A stretch of DNA of 64,000 nucleotides from Desulfovibrio gilichinskyi. Lineage in GTDB: Bacteria > Desulfobacterota > Desulfovibrionia > Desulfovibrionales > Desulfovibrionaceae. A program made the translations under genes and the position numbers. The notes beneath the pieces are model-generated. The model was not told where the DNA came from. It saw only the letters and a list, made by a program, of their open reading frames with translations, and ran no database searches. The stretch spans positions 372,001 through 436,000 of the forward strand of contig NZ_FWZU01000004.1 of assembly GCF_900177375.1 (NCBI RefSeq). Reading direction: 5' to 3'. Each line of letters opens with the position of its first letter. Positions within the stretch are counted from its first letter, which is position 1. Shown piece by piece: positions 53,072 through 63,188 of the stretch.

Positions 53072-56000
53072 ATGCGTCAAATTAATTTTGCTGCGGCTTT
53101 AAGCCTATTTGTTATTTTGACATTTGCTCTTTTCTTTCAACCAAGCTCCGCCCACTGTTCAGATATAGATACTTCTGCTCCTAAGCTTTTTTTCCAAAAT
53201 AAGCAGGTTGACCCGTTAAAGGGAACTCTCGGGTCTACGATGTTACCATCAAACGATACTTCTTCCTCTGAAAACGAGAATCGTTCAAGTTCTACGCCAA
53301 GTTTAGCAAAAACTATAGCCCGGATTTTCTCCTCTTCCGATACTACCTCTGTTGAAGAATATGATTATTATGTTGTTCAATTTTCCGGCCCTGTTCAACC
53401 TTCATGGAAAGAAGCTCTTTCAGGCCTAGGGGCTGTCTTTTTTGACTATATCCCTCAATATGCATTCATCATAAAGCTCGGAAATGCAAAGGTTGATGCC
53501 GTTAGTGAGCTGGGATTTGTGCGCTGGATCGGTAAATATGATGCTGACCTGAAGCTGTCCAGAGATGTATATGATATCAGTCCAGAGAAATTGAAGGCAC
53601 AGGAGTCTATTTTAAAAGTCAGAGTCGTTGCTTTTCCGGGCGAAGACATTAATTCGCTGGTAAATGCAATAAGTTCTGCCGGCGGAACTGTTGTTTCAAG
53701 TTCTTCCTCAACGTGGAGTATTCGAGTCGAAGTTAAAATTTCGATTAAAAATGTACGCGGACTTAAAAATATAAAAGGCGTTAAATGGGTCGAAAGAGTA
53801 CCGGAGCATCACACGAATAACAATATTGCAACCGGTATCGTTGAGGCTCGCTCAGCTCAGGGAAAAACATGGCCAGTTTCAGGCGGTAATCTGTTTGGTG
53901 AAGGGCAGATTATAGCCGTGTGCGACAGCGGGATTGATACTGGGAATATCTCCACTATCCATAAGGATTTCAGCGATGGACAGGGCGGGAGCAGGATTAT
54001 AGATAATATAGTTTTTCCAGATGCAAGTGCCATAGATTACCTAGGCCATGGAACTCATGTTGCTGGAACTATTGCCGGAAACGGTATTAAGTCAGGAGCT
54101 TCTCCTTTAGCTAACGTTTTCCCGAGCACCTCGTACGCAGGGATGGCTCCGAAGTCTAAATTGTTTTTTGAAACTGTTGGTTCTATTGACATACATGAGA
54201 GTCTGAAGCTTCCTCCGGACCTCGCGGATATTTTTCAACTGGCTTATGACGCCGGAGCCCGTGTCCACAGCAACAGTTGGGGGTCCTCAGGAACAGGGGA
54301 TTATGACAGTGAATGTGTCAGCGTTGATCAGTTCACGTGGACTAATAAAGATTTTCTTATTCTCTTTGCGGCGGGCAATGAAGGTTCCGATAAGGATGCT
54401 GACGGGGTTATCGACCATTATTGCATTGGTACTCCGGCCTCTGCCAAAAACTGTTTGACAGTAGGAGCTTCTGAATCCTACCGAACTGGAAGCAATGAAG
54501 GATATGCTGCCTATAAATTGAAAGCTTTTGGATATTCTGCTGAACCCTTAGCATCTGATTTTATCTCTGATAAACCTTACGGTATAGCTGCCTTTTCAAG
54601 TCGCGGTCCGACTCTGGACGGTCGCTACAAACCTGAAGTAGTCGCTCCGGGAACTAATATTCTTTCAACAAGATCTTCGGCGCAACTAGGGAATGCATGG
54701 GGGGCTTTCAACGAGTATTACTACTGGTCAGGTGGGACCAGTATGGCCACTCCGCTGGTTTCGGGCATGGCGGCAATAATGCGTGAATACCTTATGAAGG
54801 AGGAAGGCTTTACAGCACCAAGCGCGGCTTTAATTAAGACGAGTCTTATTCATGGCGCAATCTCGCTTGTTCCAGGTCAGTATGGAACAGGAGCGGCTCA
54901 GGAGATTACCGGAGTTCCGGATGATGTTCAGGGGTGGGGGAGAGTAGATCTTGAATCATCTATTAATTCTGACAGCCGTTATAAAATTAAATATTACGAT
55001 ATTAAAGATTCCGCTCCGGCTGATACAACTTATTCCCGCACCTTTTCTTTTGATGTTAAAAATGACCAAAAACCTTTTAAAGCAGTTCTTGGTTGGACCG
55101 ACTATCCTGGTTCTGTAGCTGCATCCGGGGGGCTGGTTAATGATTTGGACCTCAGGGTCAAAAAACCAGACGGAACATGGCTTTATCCTGATAATGCTCG
55201 CAGTTTGAGTCCACTCACAAAATGTTCTTATGTTACAGAGGTTAGTGACAGTTTTTACACGGGTAACGGAATCGGTGTGCGAGTGACTCCTCCATCATAC
55301 CCATGCACGCTTGAGTCAGTGGTTCTTGCTTTCGCCAACAGTGGCCGAGTGATTAAAGATGTTTCCGTTGTCATATACCGATATGCCGGGGGTGTTGGAG
55401 CTGAACTTTTCAGAAAAAAATTCGCATATATTCCGTCAGGCGAGTATGCTTTTCCAATAGGACTGAGTCTCACAGAGGGAGAAGTTTTGGTTGCTGTGGA
55501 AAAGGATGGTACTGCGTTCGGGGTGAACTATGACTCCGTGACTCCTACGTCCAGAGGATTTATACAACAAGTCGGCGGATCTTGGGAAGTTGCCGCTTTT
55601 ACTCCTGCTATAGGAGCTAATTTCAGAACGAATATAACTTCTACAGGTTTTGACCGTTTGAATAATTCTGTCTCTGTAACGATCCCTAAACCGCAGATCG
55701 GCACATACCAAGCGGAGATTACCGCCAATAATATTCCAAACGGTCCACAGCCTTATGCCTTGATTTTAAGCGGTATGGTGGGAGAAAATCCTACAAATGG
55801 AGAAATTGCGCTGAACGCAGATCAACCAAATGCTCCAATCTCAACTTTTCTGAGCAAAACGCACTCTCCTAAAACTGCTGAAAATATAAACGCTGTGTAT
55901 GGAACTGCGCTTGAAAATGTGTATAGCGATAAGTCTTCATTTTGTGTGCAGACCGAAGCAGACCGTGTTATCAGCATACAGTATTCTGTAAGCGGACTGC

Positions 56001-56401
56001 CTGCAGTTGCGGCCGGTAAATTGGCTTTAGAGAAATTATTCAGTAACGGCACACATATACAGTTTAAATATGCTGCCTTTGAAGATTATACCGATGGTAA
56101 CTGGTGGCTCACTGACGTATCGGGAAATTATGTTAATCCTGTGCAGACACTAAATTCAACAACTCCATATTATGTTATCTCGGCCATTAAAGACGGCGGA
56201 GCCTATGATGAAAACCCAGATTCCGGAGTAATCAATGATCCGCAGATTCTAGGTATGAGTTCACCTGGTTCCGGCGGAACAGGCTGTACCGTGGGAATGA
56301 ATGACGATTATGGACCGGTTCTTTTTCTGCTGATAGCAATAATTTCTCTGCTGTTACGGCGCAAAATCTCAAAACGACTGATGGTTCACAGTGATCAGTG
56401 A
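53072..56401 (+). CDS. secreted subtilisin-like (S8) serine protease with C-terminal anchor
   Basis: 1109 residues. Signal peptide at 1-28 (LSLFVILTFALFFQPSSAHC). Catalytic triad: D285 in VCDSGIDTG, H326 in GHGTHVAGT and S557 in GGTSMATPLVSG, with the oxyanion asparagine in AAGNEGSDK. A propeptide-like region fills 30-250. After residue 640 come beta-rich P/jelly-roll-like domains (AVLGWTDYPGSVAASGG). The C-terminus has GSGGTGCTVGMNDD, a hydrophobic helix (GPVLFLLIAIISLLLRR) and a basic end, a three-part sorting-type tail. Probably surface-anchored or processed; role in peptide scavenging is inferred. Single gene with its own leader. Confidence 0.9.
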   Translation: MRQINFAAALSLFVILTFALFFQPSSAHCSDIDTSAPKLFFQNKQVDPLKGTLGSTMLPSNDTSSSENENRSSSTPSLAKTIARIFSSSDTTSVEEYDYYVVQFSGPVQPSWKEALSGLGAVFFDYIPQYAFIIKLGNAKVDAVSELGFVRWIGKYDADLKLSRDVYDISPEKLKAQESILKVRVVAFPGEDINSLVNAISSAGGTVVSSSSSTWSIRVEVKISIKNVRGLKNIKGVKWVERVPEHHTNNNIATGIVEARSAQGKTWPVSGGNLFGEGQIIAVCDSGIDTGNISTIHKDFSDGQGGSRIIDNIVFPDASAIDYLGHGTHVAGTIAGNGIKSGASPLANVFPSTSYAGMAPKSKLFFETVGSIDIHESLKLPPDLADIFQLAYDAGARVHSNSWGSSGTGDYDSECVSVDQFTWTNKDFLILFAAGNEGSDKDADGVIDHYCIGTPASAKNCLTVGASESYRTGSNEGYAAYKLKAFGYSAEPLASDFISDKPYGIAAFSSRGPTLDGRYKPEVVAPGTNILSTRSSAQLGNAWGAFNEYYYWSGGTSMATPLVSGMAAIMREYLMKEEGFTAPSAALIKTSLIHGAISLVPGQYGTGAAQEITGVPDDVQGWGRVDLESSINSDSRYKIKYYDIKDSAPADTTYSRTFSFDVKNDQKPFKAVLGWTDYPGSVAASGGLVNDLDLRVKKPDGTWLYPDNARSLSPLTKCSYVTEVSDSFYTGNGIGVRVTPPSYPCTLESVVLAFANSGRVIKDVSVVIYRYAGGVGAELFRKKFAYIPSGEYAFPIGLSLTEGEVLVAVEKDGTAFGVNYDSVTPTSRGFIQQVGGSWEVAAFTPAIGANFRTNITSTGFDRLNNSVSVTIPKPQIGTYQAEITANNIPNGPQPYALILSGMVGENPTNGEIALNADQPNAPISTFLSKTHSPKTAENINAVYGTALENVYSDKSSFCVQTEADRVISIQYSVSGLPAVAAGKLALEKLFSNGTHIQFKYAAFEDYTDGNWWLTDVSGNYVNPVQTLNSTTPYYVISAIKDGGAYDENPDSGVINDPQILGMSSPGSGGTGCTVGMNDDYGPVLFLLIAIISLLLRRKISKRLMVHSDQ

Positions 56402-58619: not shown

Positions 58620-58896
58620 GAGGTGGTTACTCCAAAAAAATCAAATGTGTTAGGAATATAAAACGATTATTTTAAATTATATTTTCAAATATTTGTTTAA
58701 AAAAAACAATACCTAATAATCATACTTAAATCATTACCAAGGAATGGTATCAAAATCATCAGAAATTTTGTGTTTCTACATTGTTTAGAAATAGGTTTTT
58801 TAAATCAATATCAATAGATTTTTTCTATCAATAAATTCCAAAAATAATGCAGTGTTAGCACGGGAATCGTTATGTGGGGTTCGTGTGCCTTAGCCT

Positions 58897-59321
58897 ATGT
58901 ATCGCGCTTCCTACAGCTATAAATGGGAAGAAAAAAGCTGGGACTGGATTGTCGATCGTATCGCCCACAAGGTCAAAGAAACCCGCGACAAAGAATTTGT
59001 CCGCACTCGGCGAAAGCTTCGGCCGAGGTGCTATGACCAACCATTTGATCGACATTAAGAATGCCGACTCCATTCTGATCATGAGCAGTAACGCCGCAGA
59101 GCATCATCCGATCTCATTCAAGCGGGTTCTCCGTGCCAAGGACAAAGGCGCAACCGTGATGCACGTTGACCCTAAATTCTCCAGAACTTCAGCGCGTTCC
59201 GACTTTCATATTCCCTTGCGCTCTGGTACTGATATCGCCTTTCAGGGCGGCATGATCAAATACATCATCGACAATAAGAAATACTTCAACGAATACGTGG
59301 TCGAATACACCAATGCTATCG
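58897..59321 (+). pseudogene. fdhA fragment with the selenocysteine segment deleted
   Basis: Frame 58897 reads MYRASYSYKWEEKSWDWIVD and on to KETRDKEFV, matching FdhA residues about 106-138. The match then jumps, in another frame, to ALGESFGRGAMTNHLIDIKN and on to EYTNA, matching from residue 196. About 57 codons, including Sec189, are missing and the frame is broken. The N-terminal cluster domain and the C-terminal 70 percent are absent. Differences from the intact gene are spread out, so it derives from a separate paralogue. The 277 bases before it are AT-rich with no gene seen. Confidence 0.88.
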
Positions 59322-59392
59322 CTGATAGTAGGGAAGGGTGCCGGAACTGTTTTTAGAGTTGAAAGATGCCTTCGAACATCGGCAGAACCTTT

Positions 59393-60958
59393 TTAAAAGT
59401 ACAGGATCAACGCATGCCGCAGCACCCCCATAAGAGTGACTAAATCAAGACGGGTGTTTTCAGGAAGTGCCCGATAAGGTTGCATCACCGTGCCTGAATA
59501 ACCTTCGGAGATGACTTTGAAGGCCCGATCCGGTTCTAAAGAATATCTCTGCAAATTCGGCGGTGCAGGGCGTAAGGTTTGTCCGAAATCACTGACCTCA
59601 CCTTTTTGTCCATGACAGGTCGCACAAGTCTCTTTCCATACTTGACGGGATTCATCGGATACGGTTCGGTCCGGGATAGTAACCTGTTTGAACATGGCAA
59701 ATCGTTTGTCCATTTCCGCAAGCAGACTGTCGATTTTTTCACCGTCAAACACCGTGAAATAAGGCATGCCGGAACCGTCTATTCCTGTAAGCAAAATGGA
59801 GCGTATATATGTTTTTTCAGCACGTATGGCTGTAAGATCCTCGGCCTTGATCAATAGCTTCCGTCCCGCAGTCCCGTTTCCCATCCCGCCTGCTCCATGG
59901 CATGGCTGACAGCTTCCGCTATAGATGGTGGCACCGTTATCGTACACCGTTGCCAGCTTTGTTTTAAATGTTTTCAAAGCCTGCTCCCGGTATTTGTCCA
60001 GATTGGCAGATTCCTGCTTTAAGGAGGTCACCGCTTCATTATGTAATCGTGTCAGTGTAATATCCTGCAACGATTGACGAGCCGTTAGCATCGATACAAA
60101 TATTACAGGCAGAAGGATCAGTATGCCCCACCCGCGCGGTTCCGCCGGAGCGCATGACGGGCGCAAAGTCCAGATGAGAAATACCGCGGCTATTACTCCA
60201 AGAGTGACCGCAGTCAGCACAGGCCAATTAAATACGTCTGCTATGGTGAACAGTAGAGGCACGCCCACCGCAACCTGAAAGAGAGTTCCCCCTAACAGCC
60301 AGCGTTGAAGTTTGGCGTTTTTGAGTTTGTCCCCTTTGGAGAAAAACAGATGGAAGGCCGCGCCGAAGACAAGGGCTGCGCCGAGCACATGCAGGTAGCG
60401 AAACAGCCAGTGCGGCATGTAAATTGAAGACAATGATAGTTTTTTGGCTCCGAATTCTGCCCATAATTCAGGACGTTCCATTAGAGACAGTGCTCCGGTG
60501 AATACCGCCGGTACAGTGAGCAACGCTCCCACTCCCAGCACTCCGCACAGGAATGGAATCCACGGAGTTGCGAGCATCTTGCGTTCGAACAGTTCTATGC
60601 TCAAAAAAGCGAAGATGAGCAGGGGAATGATGGACAGCCAAGTGTAGGCGAATAATCCCGTCGCAGTGAAAAATCCCATTGAAGAGATTACCTGAATGAT
60701 CAAAAGCGGTGCCACACCTAGGACGACAGCCAGACTTTTGAGTCCCAGATGGGACTTAATCAGCCGCTGGTTCCAAGCCAGACCCTCTCTGTCGCCGGGA
60801 AACTTCCTCTGTAGAAAGAAAACAAACCCGAGCATGGCAGTACCCAGCATGAGCAGAACAAACAACAGGTGCAGTCCGAAAGAAACGAAAAGCAGGAATC
60901 GCAGCCAACCCTCGCTGAGCGGTAGTGTAAGAAACAGATCTGTCCATTGTTTCATCAC
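59393..60958 (-). CDS. membrane protein with two c-type haem sites, bd-oxidase-like partner subunit
   Basis: 521 residues. About eight membrane helices fill residues 15-300, with histidines in KSHLGLKSLAV and MPHWLFRYLHVLGAALVFGA like those of CydA-related subunits. The C-terminal 200 residues are a periplasmic dihaem cytochrome c: C350-X2-C353-H and C445-X2-C448-H. It overlaps the preceding gene by four bases. Probably forms a complex with the 60955 protein, passing electrons between cytochrome c haems and b-type haems. No exact family known to me. Confidence 0.82.
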   Translation of the reverse strand: MMKQWTDLFLTLPLSEGWLRFLLFVSFGLHLLFVLLMLGTAMLGFVFFLQRKFPGDREGLAWNQRLIKSHLGLKSLAVVLGVAPLLIIQVISSMGFFTATGLFAYTWLSIIPLLIFAFLSIELFERKMLATPWIPFLCGVLGVGALLTVPAVFTGALSLMERPELWAEFGAKKLSLSSIYMPHWLFRYLHVLGAALVFGAAFHLFFSKGDKLKNAKLQRWLLGGTLFQVAVGVPLLFTIADVFNWPVLTAVTLGVIAAVFLIWTLRPSCAPAEPRGWGILILLPVIFVSMLTARQSLQDITLTRLHNEAVTSLKQESANLDKYREQALKTFKTKLATVYDNGATIYSGSCQPCHGAGGMGNGTAGRKLLIKAEDLTAIRAEKTYIRSILLTGIDGSGMPYFTVFDGEKIDSLLAEMDKRFAMFKQVTIPDRTVSDESRQVWKETCATCHGQKGEVSDFGQTLRPAPPNLQRYSLEPDRAFKVISEGYSGTVMQPYRALPENTRLDLVTLMGVLRHALILYF

Positions 60959-62310
60959 TTCTTCTCCTTGAGCAGTTGGGGCCTCGGGCGAACGTCCTTG
61001 TTGGCCATGTAGTAAAGATAGGTGGACATAGTCAGACGCTCTTGCTCCGAACCGGTAAAGGGGGGCATGAAAGGAACCATACTTTCGGTTATGGACGTTA
61101 TGGCATTGACCCCTTCAAGGGTTCGGCCTCGCAAGCGTTGATTGATATCATTAATCCCGCCGAATGTGTGACATCCACCGCAGTTCGCGTTGAATAGAGC
61201 TCGTCCGGCTAGGGCATAAGGGGCTTCGTCTTCGGTAGTATTTATCCAGCGCAGGGAATTAAGCAAAGTATTGTCATCAGCGCGGGCCCCTTCGGTGCGT
61301 ACCATAGATATCTGGTTGGCGTACATGTAACCAGGCAGCAGATACGGACCGCGTACAAACTCGCGTACACGTTCAAATTCAGTCACCATGCCCATGCTGA
61401 AGATTACGCATGGAATGAACAGGATCATACTCAGCTTGCGCTGACGCAGAAGTGCTCCCAGTCCGGCAAAGATAAGACAGGTTGCAGCCACGATATTAAT
61501 CACTGGTAAGAACGCCGTGTTTTGAGACCACACTGAGGTGGCTACGGCGAATTTCCAATGCGTCAGATAGGTTTCAGGAATACGTGAAAAATAGATGGTG
61601 GTTGCCGTTGCCGTGCAGAAGCCGGCAATGAGCATGACGAGTCCACAGGTGCGAAGCAACCGTCCGCGTTCTTCTGTGGTCCCTTTGTAACGCCATGCTG
61701 TCCAGCCCATAGCGAGAAGTGCGCCCATAGTTATACCTGCAGCGATGCGCAGGATGCATTGGGGTAGAAATGTCGGGTTAAAATAAGCCTGAACGAATTC
61801 CCGTCCTTGAGGCCAACCGTCAGGTGTCAGCATGAAACCTAGAATGCCGGAGATAAGTATAGCGGAACTGAATGCTACAAAGAGATACCCCCAACCTACA
61901 AACATGAGTTTTCGGGGATTCTTCTCGGCTAAGCGATCCCAGAGGAAATAATAGATGAGCAGAAAGATAACCTCAACGGTGAAAGCTATCCATTCTATGA
62001 ACCAAGGCCAGAAAAACAGATGAATCAAAGACCCGATACCCTGCGGGGACAGAATCCCGGTGATGAACCAGATTCCAACGCCTGTAACTGCTCCGATAGA
62101 AGTGGTCACGACCACCACAGGGCCAAGCAAAGAACGCGCGGAGTCCTGCCAGAACCGGCCATGCCCGAGGGTGTGGATGGTTTGAAACAGGACAATCATG
62201 AATGTTGTGCCGATGGCCAAAGCATGGCTGATCAGCACGTGAATCACAGCGTTTAAGGCGATGGTCATCCCGTCGCCAAGTACAGGGATATGCAGCACAG
62301 GGAAAGTCAT
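60955..62310 (-). CDS. cytochrome bd subunit I-like protein with C-terminal haem c
   Basis: 451 residues with about nine membrane helices. The N-terminus (NAVIHVLISHALAIGTTFMI) and WFIEWIAFTVEVIF supply histidine and glutamate residues as in CydA haem sites. The long Q-loop and GRQPW quinol motif of classical CydA are missing. EFERVREFVRGPYLLPGYMY precedes a c-type haem motif C377-X2-C380-H381. This fits the branches of the bd superfamily that lack a quinol site, some of which carry haem c. It overlaps both neighbours by four bases (ATGA). O2 as acceptor is not proven. Confidence 0.83.
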   Translation of the reverse strand: MTFPVLHIPVLGDGMTIALNAVIHVLISHALAIGTTFMIVLFQTIHTLGHGRFWQDSARSLLGPVVVVTTSIGAVTGVGIWFITGILSPQGIGSLIHLFFWPWFIEWIAFTVEVIFLLIYYFLWDRLAEKNPRKLMFVGWGYLFVAFSSAILISGILGFMLTPDGWPQGREFVQAYFNPTFLPQCILRIAAGITMGALLAMGWTAWRYKGTTEERGRLLRTCGLVMLIAGFCTATATTIYFSRIPETYLTHWKFAVATSVWSQNTAFLPVINIVAATCLIFAGLGALLRQRKLSMILFIPCVIFSMGMVTEFERVREFVRGPYLLPGYMYANQISMVRTEGARADDNTLLNSLRWINTTEDEAPYALAGRALFNANCGGCHTFGGINDINQRLRGRTLEGVNAITSITESMVPFMPPFTGSEQERLTMSTYLYYMANKDVRPRPQLLKEKK

Positions 62311-63188
62311 TTGCTTGCCTCCACCGGGAGCTTGATAACTCGCTTGATTTTGTTGGGATGGGTGGCAATGAATTTTGGGCGAGGTTGTTCGTGAACGTAA
62401 GCAGTCACGTTCAAAGCCTCTTCTTTGGTTAAAGTAGGTGCTGATTTAGGCATAAAACGCCATGAAAAAACCGAGAAAGTTCTGACTCGATTCATGCCAG
62501 CACCATCATTAAAGGATCCATCGCCCCAAAGCGGTGGTGCAATGGGCGTTCCGTAGCCGTCATTACCGTGACATCTGGCACAGACATCCTCATAAATTTT
62601 CTTGCCGGCTATAACGTCCGGCGTGCTGTTGATACCGAGATCATGGGGGATTCCCAGCCACGGGGGATTGGAATAAATGGGTACTCCCTTGGAAATCCAT
62701 TGATAGTAAACCAGCAGTGACTGCATAATCTGGCTGTCCGGAGCCGGAGCTTTGCCGTTCATGCTGCGTTCGAAGCAGCCCTGAGTACGCAGAGCCAGGT
62801 CCGCAGTATATTCACGGCGGCCTCGATAAGCTGGATATTTAGCCCCCACGCCGACCAAAGAAAGGGTGTTTTTACTGCGCCCTCCGTCAAAATGGCAATT
62901 GGTGCAAGCCAGGTTGTTGCCTACGTATTCTCCGGCATATTTTTGGGTTTCGGTCATGATCTTGTAGCCGAGCATAACTTGCTCACGGATGGATTCGGGT
63001 GCTTCTTCCAGCCCCGGAGGGTTGAAAAGCGGCCCTGATCCGATAACTGATTCACTGGAATTGGAAACGGCGGAATTGGCTATTCTGGGCTGGGTGGCAG
63101 TCCACTGGAAAAACATGGCAAGCCATGCTCCGAATCCTAATAGCAGGGTGACTAATGCGAGCGAGAAATATAACTTTTTATCGTTCAT
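62307..63188 (-). CDS. tsdA: TsdA-like dihaem cytochrome c (thiosulfate dehydrogenase/tetrathionate reductase family)
   Basis: 293 residues, anchored by an N-terminal helix (7-29). Haem 1 is C95-X2-C98-H99 and haem 2 is C203-X2-C206-H207. The TsdA signature LALRTQGCFERSMNGK contains C138, placed like the unusual axial cysteine of thiosulfate dehydrogenase. MQSLLVYYQWISKGVP follows as in the family. M246 is a candidate ligand for haem 2. TsdA interconverts thiosulfate and tetrathionate in the periplasm. It is first in a three-gene operon with bd-like haem-c proteins, which suggests those accept or donate its electrons. Confidence 0.85.
   Translation of the reverse strand: MNDKKLYFSLALVTLLLGFGAWLAMFFQWTATQPRIANSAVSNSSESVIGSGPLFNPPGLEEAPESIREQVMLGYKIMTETQKYAGEYVGNNLACTNCHFDGGRSKNTLSLVGVGAKYPAYRGRREYTADLALRTQGCFERSMNGKAPAPDSQIMQSLLVYYQWISKGVPIYSNPPWLGIPHDLGINSTPDVIAGKKIYEDVCARCHGNDGYGTPIAPPLWGDGSFNDGAGMNRVRTFSVFSWRFMPKSAPTLTKEEALNVTAYVHEQPRPKFIATHPNKIKRVIKLPVEASK

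Follow-up and report, generated by a model that had tools for sequence, protein, structure and literature searches.

The cytochrome bd superfamily has been divided into the classes qOR, OR-C and OR-N (PMC13189123). OR-N CydAA′ is treated as a likely terminal oxidase (PMC10839748, PMC12342949), cytochrome c is its proposed donor, and the enzyme is called putative or uncharacterised (PMC10839748); the affinity of a quinol-less bd enzyme is described as unknown (PMC12342949). CydA fused to multiple c-type cytochromes was noted in more than 50 deltaproteobacteria, where the proteins were called not proper bd oxidases and discarded (PMC5322542), and for cable bacteria a CydA homologue carrying a cytochrome c domain has been put forward as one way in which O2 might be reduced (PMC13047784). 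Here we describe an operon of Desulfovibrio gilichinskyi in which a gene for a TsdA-family dihaem cytochrome precedes genes for a CydA-like protein and a second membrane subunit. It lies in a stretch of 64,000 nucleotides (contig NZ_FWZU01000004.1, positions 372,001 to 436,000), which we call the window. On balance, we favour the prediction that its products make up a thiosulfate oxidase in the membrane, a member of the cytochrome bd superfamily that would carry electrons from thiosulfate to O2.

The three open reading frames (ORFs) run head-to-tail and overlapping on the minus strand from 63188 to 59393, with the same boundaries as in a first-pass annotation of the window (Table 1). That annotation had described the overlaps as ATGA. 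This holds for tsdA and cydA, but cydA and the third gene share GTGA if translation of the latter starts at GTG 60958, or a single base (TGATG) if it starts at ATG 60955. A scan for promoters and terminators gave no excess over shuffled sequences (5 vs 6.6 and 4 vs 5.7).

The product of the first gene matches TsdA of Allochromatium vinosum (AvTsdA, 4wq7; phmmer 9.5e-39, residues 66-273), the solved protein 5lo9 (2.5e-32), which we take to be the Marichromatium TsdBA fusion, and the Pfam family SoxA-TsdA_cyt-c (2.4e-9). We aligned an AvTsdA segment with 32 rows, consisting of TsdA from 28 loci and four extra sequences (the TsdA parts of the larger four-haem proteins L041b and L048b, the latter half of the gene that is split in L056, and an additional TsdA from L059). 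Both CXXCH motifs (C95 and C203) are present, and Cys138, named earlier as the axial cysteine, aligns with the catalytic Cys96 of AvTsdA. Of the AvTsdA residues Arg82, Arg92 and Ser100, the first is conserved in 25 rows and the other two in 27 each; the window equivalents of the latter pair are Arg134 and Ser142. The two haem c sites, the catalytic Cys, the haem 2 Met and the overall sequence are shared with the known TsdA proteins of A. vinosum and Campylobacter jejuni and with 5lo9.

These similarities bear on the possibility that the membrane module is an O2-reducing (or nitric oxide- or peroxide-scavenging) cytochrome whose TsdA-like protein acts on sulfite, polysulfide or persulfide, or is a dihaem electron-entry module only. 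SoxA/TsdA-type Cys-haem enzymes do form a broader family, as the name of the Pfam match reflects. However, the best solved relatives are thiosulfate dehydrogenases, and the positions of Cys138, Arg134 and Ser142 are retained in 30, 27 and 27 of the 32 rows. We consider this possibility unlikely.

The TsdA-like protein departs from known TsdA in three respects. First, all 22 TsdA proteins examined (from the 28 loci, excluding six whose start is truncated or uncertain) have a hydrophobic N-terminal helix, followed in 14 of them by no AxA-like site; on the basis of hydropathy, this helix probably anchors the protein in the membrane. Second, the residue before Met246, at the position of Av Lys208, is Phe in the window, and across the 32 rows it is Phe in 17, Asn in 14 and a gap in one. 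Third, the neighbour is a bd-type oxidase, whereas we take the partner of known TsdA to be the small cytochrome TsdB.

The second gene had been read as encoding a CydA-like protein that lacks the quinol loop and carries haem c at C377, and this reading was borne out. Residues 17-234 match Pfam Cyt_bd_oxida_I (5.5e-18), and a C-terminal cytochrome c domain with one haem c site follows. The quinol-site motif QPxK occurs in none of 28 orthologues and in both canonical CydA proteins of the same genome. The CydA helix core appears in the structure model, as the first-pass annotation would have predicted, and the positions of the active-site residues of Geobacillus CydA (Gt; H21, E101 and E108) are matched. 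His24, the first of these, presumably corresponds to His19 of E. coli. Since Arg188 occupies the position of the ligand His186, the low-spin haem b558 site has probably been lost from this subunit. Glu317 and Arg320, together with the invariant P322, form a motif that agrees with both canonical copies and whose residues we take to be E445 and R448 in E. coli; profile alignment over this stretch falls short of significance, and the confidence of the model is <50 from residue 322 on. Arg188 and Glu317 are 129 residues apart, compared with 192 and 201 between His (assigned by eye) and Glu in the canonical copies. It is very unlikely, in our judgement, that this bd-like module has lost its O2 chemistry and serves as a membrane anchor, active in electron transfer or charge translocation, through which TsdA is connected with other redox partners.

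As described previously, the third gene encodes a membrane protein with two haem c sites (C350 and C445), which follow eight long helices in the model. The predicted fold is a bd-type helix bundle, and in 9 of the 10 top bd entries the best-matching chain is the longer subunit (CydA). No Pfam CydB or bd subunit II family (presumably PF02322) was among the matches up to an E-value of 1. We therefore dropped the name CydB, kept the bd fold and use the safer term bd-fold subunit B. We also rejected subunit B as a sequence relative of canonical CydA, as the profile match was not significant; a 96% match to the profile of the window CydA may partly reflect the haem c and helices common to both. Two invariant histidines, His30 and His190, are candidate ligands of a b-haem.

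Table 1. Positions of the operon genes, haem sites and predicted ligands in the window.
Feature	Position	Strand	Remarks
tsdA-like gene	62307..63188	-	293 residues; TsdA-family dihaem cytochrome c, probably membrane-anchored (phmmer, Pfam, hydrophobic N-terminal helix)
TsdA haem 1 CXXCH, C95-H99	62892..62906	-	aligned with Av C49/C52/H53
Cys138, presumed axial/catalytic Cys of haem 1 (AvTsdA Cys96)	62775..62777	-	Cys in 30/32 rows; one gap, one Pro
TsdA haem 2 CXXCH, C203-H207	62568..62582	-	aligned with Av C160/C163/H164
Met246 (Av Met209), presumed axial ligand of haem 2	62451..62453	-	Met in 31/32 rows, one gap
cydA-like gene	60955..62310	-	451 residues; 8-helix bd-oxidase subunit I core and C-terminal haem c domain; no quinol motif
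His24 (Geobacillus CydA His21), active-site haem ligand position	62239..62241	-	invariant in 28/28 orthologues, 49/49 paralogues
Glu106 (Gt Glu101)	61993..61995	-	invariant in 28/28 orthologues, 49/49 paralogues
Glu113 (Gt Glu108)	61972..61974	-	invariant in 28/28 orthologues, 49/49 paralogues
Arg188 at b558 ligand position (Gt His186)	61747..61749	-	Arg in 28/28 orthologues, 49/49 paralogues
Glu317-x-x-Arg320 (xPY)	61351..61362	-	invariant in 28/28 and 49/49; by eye like the CydA E-x-x-R-x-P-W motif
Haem c CXXCH of CydA-like protein, C377-H381	61168..61182	-	
bd-fold subunit B gene	59393..60958	-	521 residues (520 if the start is ATG 60955); 8 helices, with two haem c domains at the C-terminal end
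Subunit B His30, candidate ligand of haem b	60869..60871	-	25/25 invariant; His in 42/42 aligning paralogue partners (of 43)
Subunit B His190 (RYLHVLG), second candidate ligand of haem b	60389..60391	-	25/25 invariant; 39/39 aligning paralogue partners (of 43)
Haem c CXXCH of subunit B, C350-H354	59897..59911	-	invariant
Haem c CXXCH of subunit B, C445-H449	59612..59626	-	invariant

With canonical cytochrome bd quinol oxidases (CydAB, qOR), the operon shares the CydA helix core and the active-site His/Glu positions; it differs in the missing quinol motif, the Arg in place of the b558 His, the haem c on both subunits and the absence of a CydB Pfam match. Like the quinol-less OR-C and OR-N members, it includes a relative of CydA that carries haem c and lacks the quinol site; what sets this clade apart is that its operon contains a TsdA gene of its own and that its second subunit bears two haem c domains. 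The CydA-like protein would fit OR-C, a class of the Murali et al. 2021 scheme that presumably comprises haem c-bearing CydA relatives without a quinol site. CydAh of cable bacteria resembles it by description, and the main text of that paper makes no mention of TsdA or thiosulfate dehydrogenase (PMC13047784). Elsewhere, thiosulfate dehydrogenase appears once in a list of known pathways (PMC10989961), tsdA and cydA are named separately (PMC9326234, PMC10423856), tsdA stands in a table of sulfur enzymes (PMC5573963), and one further source offered nothing of use on a link between TsdA and CydA (PMC8117226). Among the papers listed in searches of the open-access literature, no title or abstract opening described TsdA paired with such CydA or bd genes.

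We compared 38 orthologous loci: the window, L005 and L006; 27 loci numbered L034-L060; and eight numbered L061-L068. TsdA lies directly upstream of cydA in 36 of them (3/3, 25/27 and 8/8, respectively), so the pairing is not due to chance. In L049 only the end of TsdA is present, at a contig edge, and in L056 tsdA is split in frame. Subunit B follows in 37 of the 38, the exception being L053, where the contig ends first. The CydA proteins of L048 and L066 are identical, leaving 37 distinct loci, 35 of them with TsdA; further near-duplicates between the two collections may exist. The genome-contig search favours close relatives, as it was made with the window peptides, and many loci come from metagenome-assembled genomes, whose organism labels may be misassigned. 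The operon is also found in a culture-collection strain, Desulfogranum japonicum DSM 18378 (L035).

The paralogues gave a different picture. At 49 paralogue loci (L002, L007-L033 and L069-L089), TsdA was never found within up to ~1.5 kb, nor was it present in any of 21 stretches of 10-17 kb (L004 among them). TsdA is thus ruled out as a marker of all haem-c CydA proteins. We infer that these paralogues are the CydA-cytochrome c fusion proteins noted previously (PMC5322542). The paralogues, among them that of the host genome (C2:202232-203512), have the same invariant CydA residues as the window protein, together with a partner in which His30 and His190 have counterparts; their identity to the window CydA is ~27-34%. 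The host copy (L004:6145-9701, C2) has 822 residues with a multihaem extension, and the partner with the His30 and His190 equivalents is a separate protein. Such relatives occur in most of the 58 genomes studied from the order, 42 of which gave some match.

In 297 genomes of the phylum (the host included), a search made without TsdA as query recovered nine orthologues with the CydA profile (667-718 bits), the next match scoring 297 bits. TsdA was detected at 1e-15 in 13 of these genomes and was adjacent by coordinates in all nine with an orthologue. Among the TsdA matches without an orthologue, those of G174 and G228 are ORFs of 751 and 674 residues with four CXXCH motifs that resemble a MauG-TsdA protein described below, and that of G186 lies within a larger ORF. 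In G339 (L126), a partial TsdA without a CydA orthologue adjoins ORFs that by eye resemble transposases, while G110 and G253, of the same genus, carry the module. Across 58 genomes (the host and 57 relatives), the orthologue and TsdA were each found in three, the same three. The module is patchy, occurring in 3 of 17 genomes examined from the host's own genus.

We built a CydA tree by a quick method with SH-aLRT (Shimodaira-Hasegawa-like approximate likelihood ratio test) support only, using 86 rows and a midpoint root. L056 was left out, as was the canonical CydA pair, which had no tblastn match. A branch with support 100 separates all 37 orthologues from the remaining rows, and 35 of the 37 have TsdA. 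TsdA adjacency changes twice on the tree, compared with a shuffled mean of 27.3. Because L058, L059 and L060 attach close to the base by long branches in no resolved order, and the program warned of long-branch joins, TsdA may be either ancestral or a later gain. For 30 loci with complete sets, distance-matrix correlations were 0.80 for TsdA-CydA, 0.83 for TsdA-B and 0.96 for CydA-B, values reached in none of 2000 permutations.

Sulfur genes accompany the operon in some relatives. Within flanks of up to 6 kb of the 27 loci L034-L060, SoxB-like, SorA, DsrE, TauE or DsrC genes were detected by scan or clustering near 11. By clustering, subunit B is followed immediately by a SoxB-like gene in L042, L044, L055 and L057, and such a gene is close by in L046 and L054; for L042 and L054, TIGR04486 was the best family (3.2e-105 and 2.8e-103), yet under its 550-bit cut-off. 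No leader was seen by eye in the SoxB-like protein of L042. A seventh candidate cluster member, in L038, fitted nucleotidase families better and was not counted. SorA-type sulfite dehydrogenase was the best family, under its 600-bit cut-off, in L044 and L050, and was assigned by clustering in L054. DsrE genes occur in L041, L045 and (by clustering) L048, TauE in L045 and L055, and DsrC in L058. Downstream of the module in L041 is a protein with a MauG/di-haem peroxidase domain, a TsdA domain and four CXXCH motifs (L041:9579-11510), which adjoins DsrE-like and solute-binding genes. This arrangement, with similar ORFs in L048, is in keeping with a substrate other than thiosulfate. ORFs of ~640-750 residues with four CXXCH motifs in L048 (9618-11528), L124, L125 and L128 were likened to the L041 protein by resemblance only.

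Our model for the operon is as follows. The three proteins would form a complex in which TsdA, held at the periplasmic face by its N-terminal helix, joins two thiosulfate molecules to tetrathionate at the Cys/His-ligated haem 1. Electrons would pass to the Met-ligated haem 2 and then to the c-haems of subunit B and the CydA-like subunit, probably assisted by a b-haem on His30 and His190 of subunit B. They would then reach a di-haem site in the CydA-like bundle (His24, Glu106, Glu113 and Glu317/Arg320), where O2 would be reduced; no quinol would be used. The thiosulfate/tetrathionate couple has a midpoint potential (Em) of +198 mV (PMC9562282), so electron transfer from thiosulfate to O2 would be downhill. 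The host genome contains dsrA (over the cut-off), a single TsdA and four CydA proteins: two canonical, the window copy and the multihaem paralogue. It has no match to COX1 and none to PF00033, the cytochrome b family that was searched. Thus, the usual bc1/haem-copper oxidase outlet for TsdA electrons was not found. Periplasmic cytochromes c3, we assume, could serve as an outlet.

Electrons might instead flow in reverse, from periplasmic cytochromes or a quinol site in subunit B that escaped detection, through the membrane module to TsdA, making the operon a tetrathionate reductase. TsdA is reversible, and the Campylobacter enzyme, which has Asn-Met at its Met-ligated haem 2, works in vivo by reducing tetrathionate, and substitutions at haem 2 change its direction (PMC5146829). 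The host has dsrA, as sulfate reducers do. However, the CydA active-site positions, for which a tetrathionate reductase has no evident need, are invariant (28/28 and 49/49), the quinol motif is absent, and SoxB-like and SorA genes, which belong to oxidative sulfur pathways, lie near several relatives. We regard reverse flow as distinctly unlikely.

Other observations weigh against a thiosulfate oxidase. TsdA enzymes work in both directions, and the Asn-Met arrangement of the Campylobacter reductase occurs in 14 of 32 rows. Two orthologous loci, L058 and L060, both branching near the base of the tree, have no TsdA; therefore, the oxidase can exist without it. In L058 a DsrC-like gene (L058:5416-5757) is next upstream of cydA, possibly a different sulfur partner for the same oxidase, which also fits the view that another substrate is used. 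The distance-matrix correlations could also come from common organismal history. No sulfur neighbours were found beside the operon of the window or at the other 16 of the 27 loci, and the count of 11 could in part be due to chance. A SoxB search of the host genome gave one match of 117 bits, far short of the 550 required, and control genomes in part score as high; the SoxB link of the relatives therefore does not extend to the host. Two canonical CydA proteins offer the host other routes to O2, and we found no biochemistry for this clade.

Overall, the picture suggests a dedicated machine, predicted from sequence and models, that carries thiosulfate electrons to O2, and it supports the earlier proposal that the operon could link thiosulfate/tetrathionate chemistry to a bd-like haem centre. 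In a sulfate reducer, its likely role is to scavenge O2 with sulfur intermediates at oxic-anoxic interfaces. Dannenberg et al. in 1992 reportedly observed O2-linked oxidation of inorganic sulfur compounds, thiosulfate among them, by sulfate reducers, and the operon is a concrete candidate enzyme for this activity. A bolder prediction, to which we give slightly less than even weight, is that it encodes an oxidoreductase dedicated to thiosulfate and oxygen, in which a bd-superfamily enzyme is permanently coupled to a Cys-haem sulfur dehydrogenase and needs neither quinol nor a soluble cytochrome c pool. Such an enzyme would be spread across sulfate reducers and other sulfur-cycling bacteria and would cause part of the O2-dependent sulfur oxidation reported for sulfate reducers. 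In the papers cited above, quinol-less bd enzymes have no more than a proposed donor; the operon names a specific, testable donor for one clade. Desulfovibrio bd oxidases have been implied in O2 detoxification (PMC10591310).

Elsewhere in the window, at 53072-56401 (+), is a subtilase of 1109 residues (Peptidase_S8, 1.6e-42) with a short hydrophobic C-terminal tail and basic residues. The tail looks like a sorting or anchoring signal, although it had no match among the NCBIfam tail models. Apparent gene remnants flank the operon on both sides: a fragment of formate dehydrogenase alpha at 58874-59356 (+) lies to one side, and the opposite flank has an ORF whose sole domain is the LysR effector domain, together with an MFS fragment (L003:7435-8142 (-) and L003:7901-8599 (+)). 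These remnants could mean that DNA was recently inserted or deleted here.

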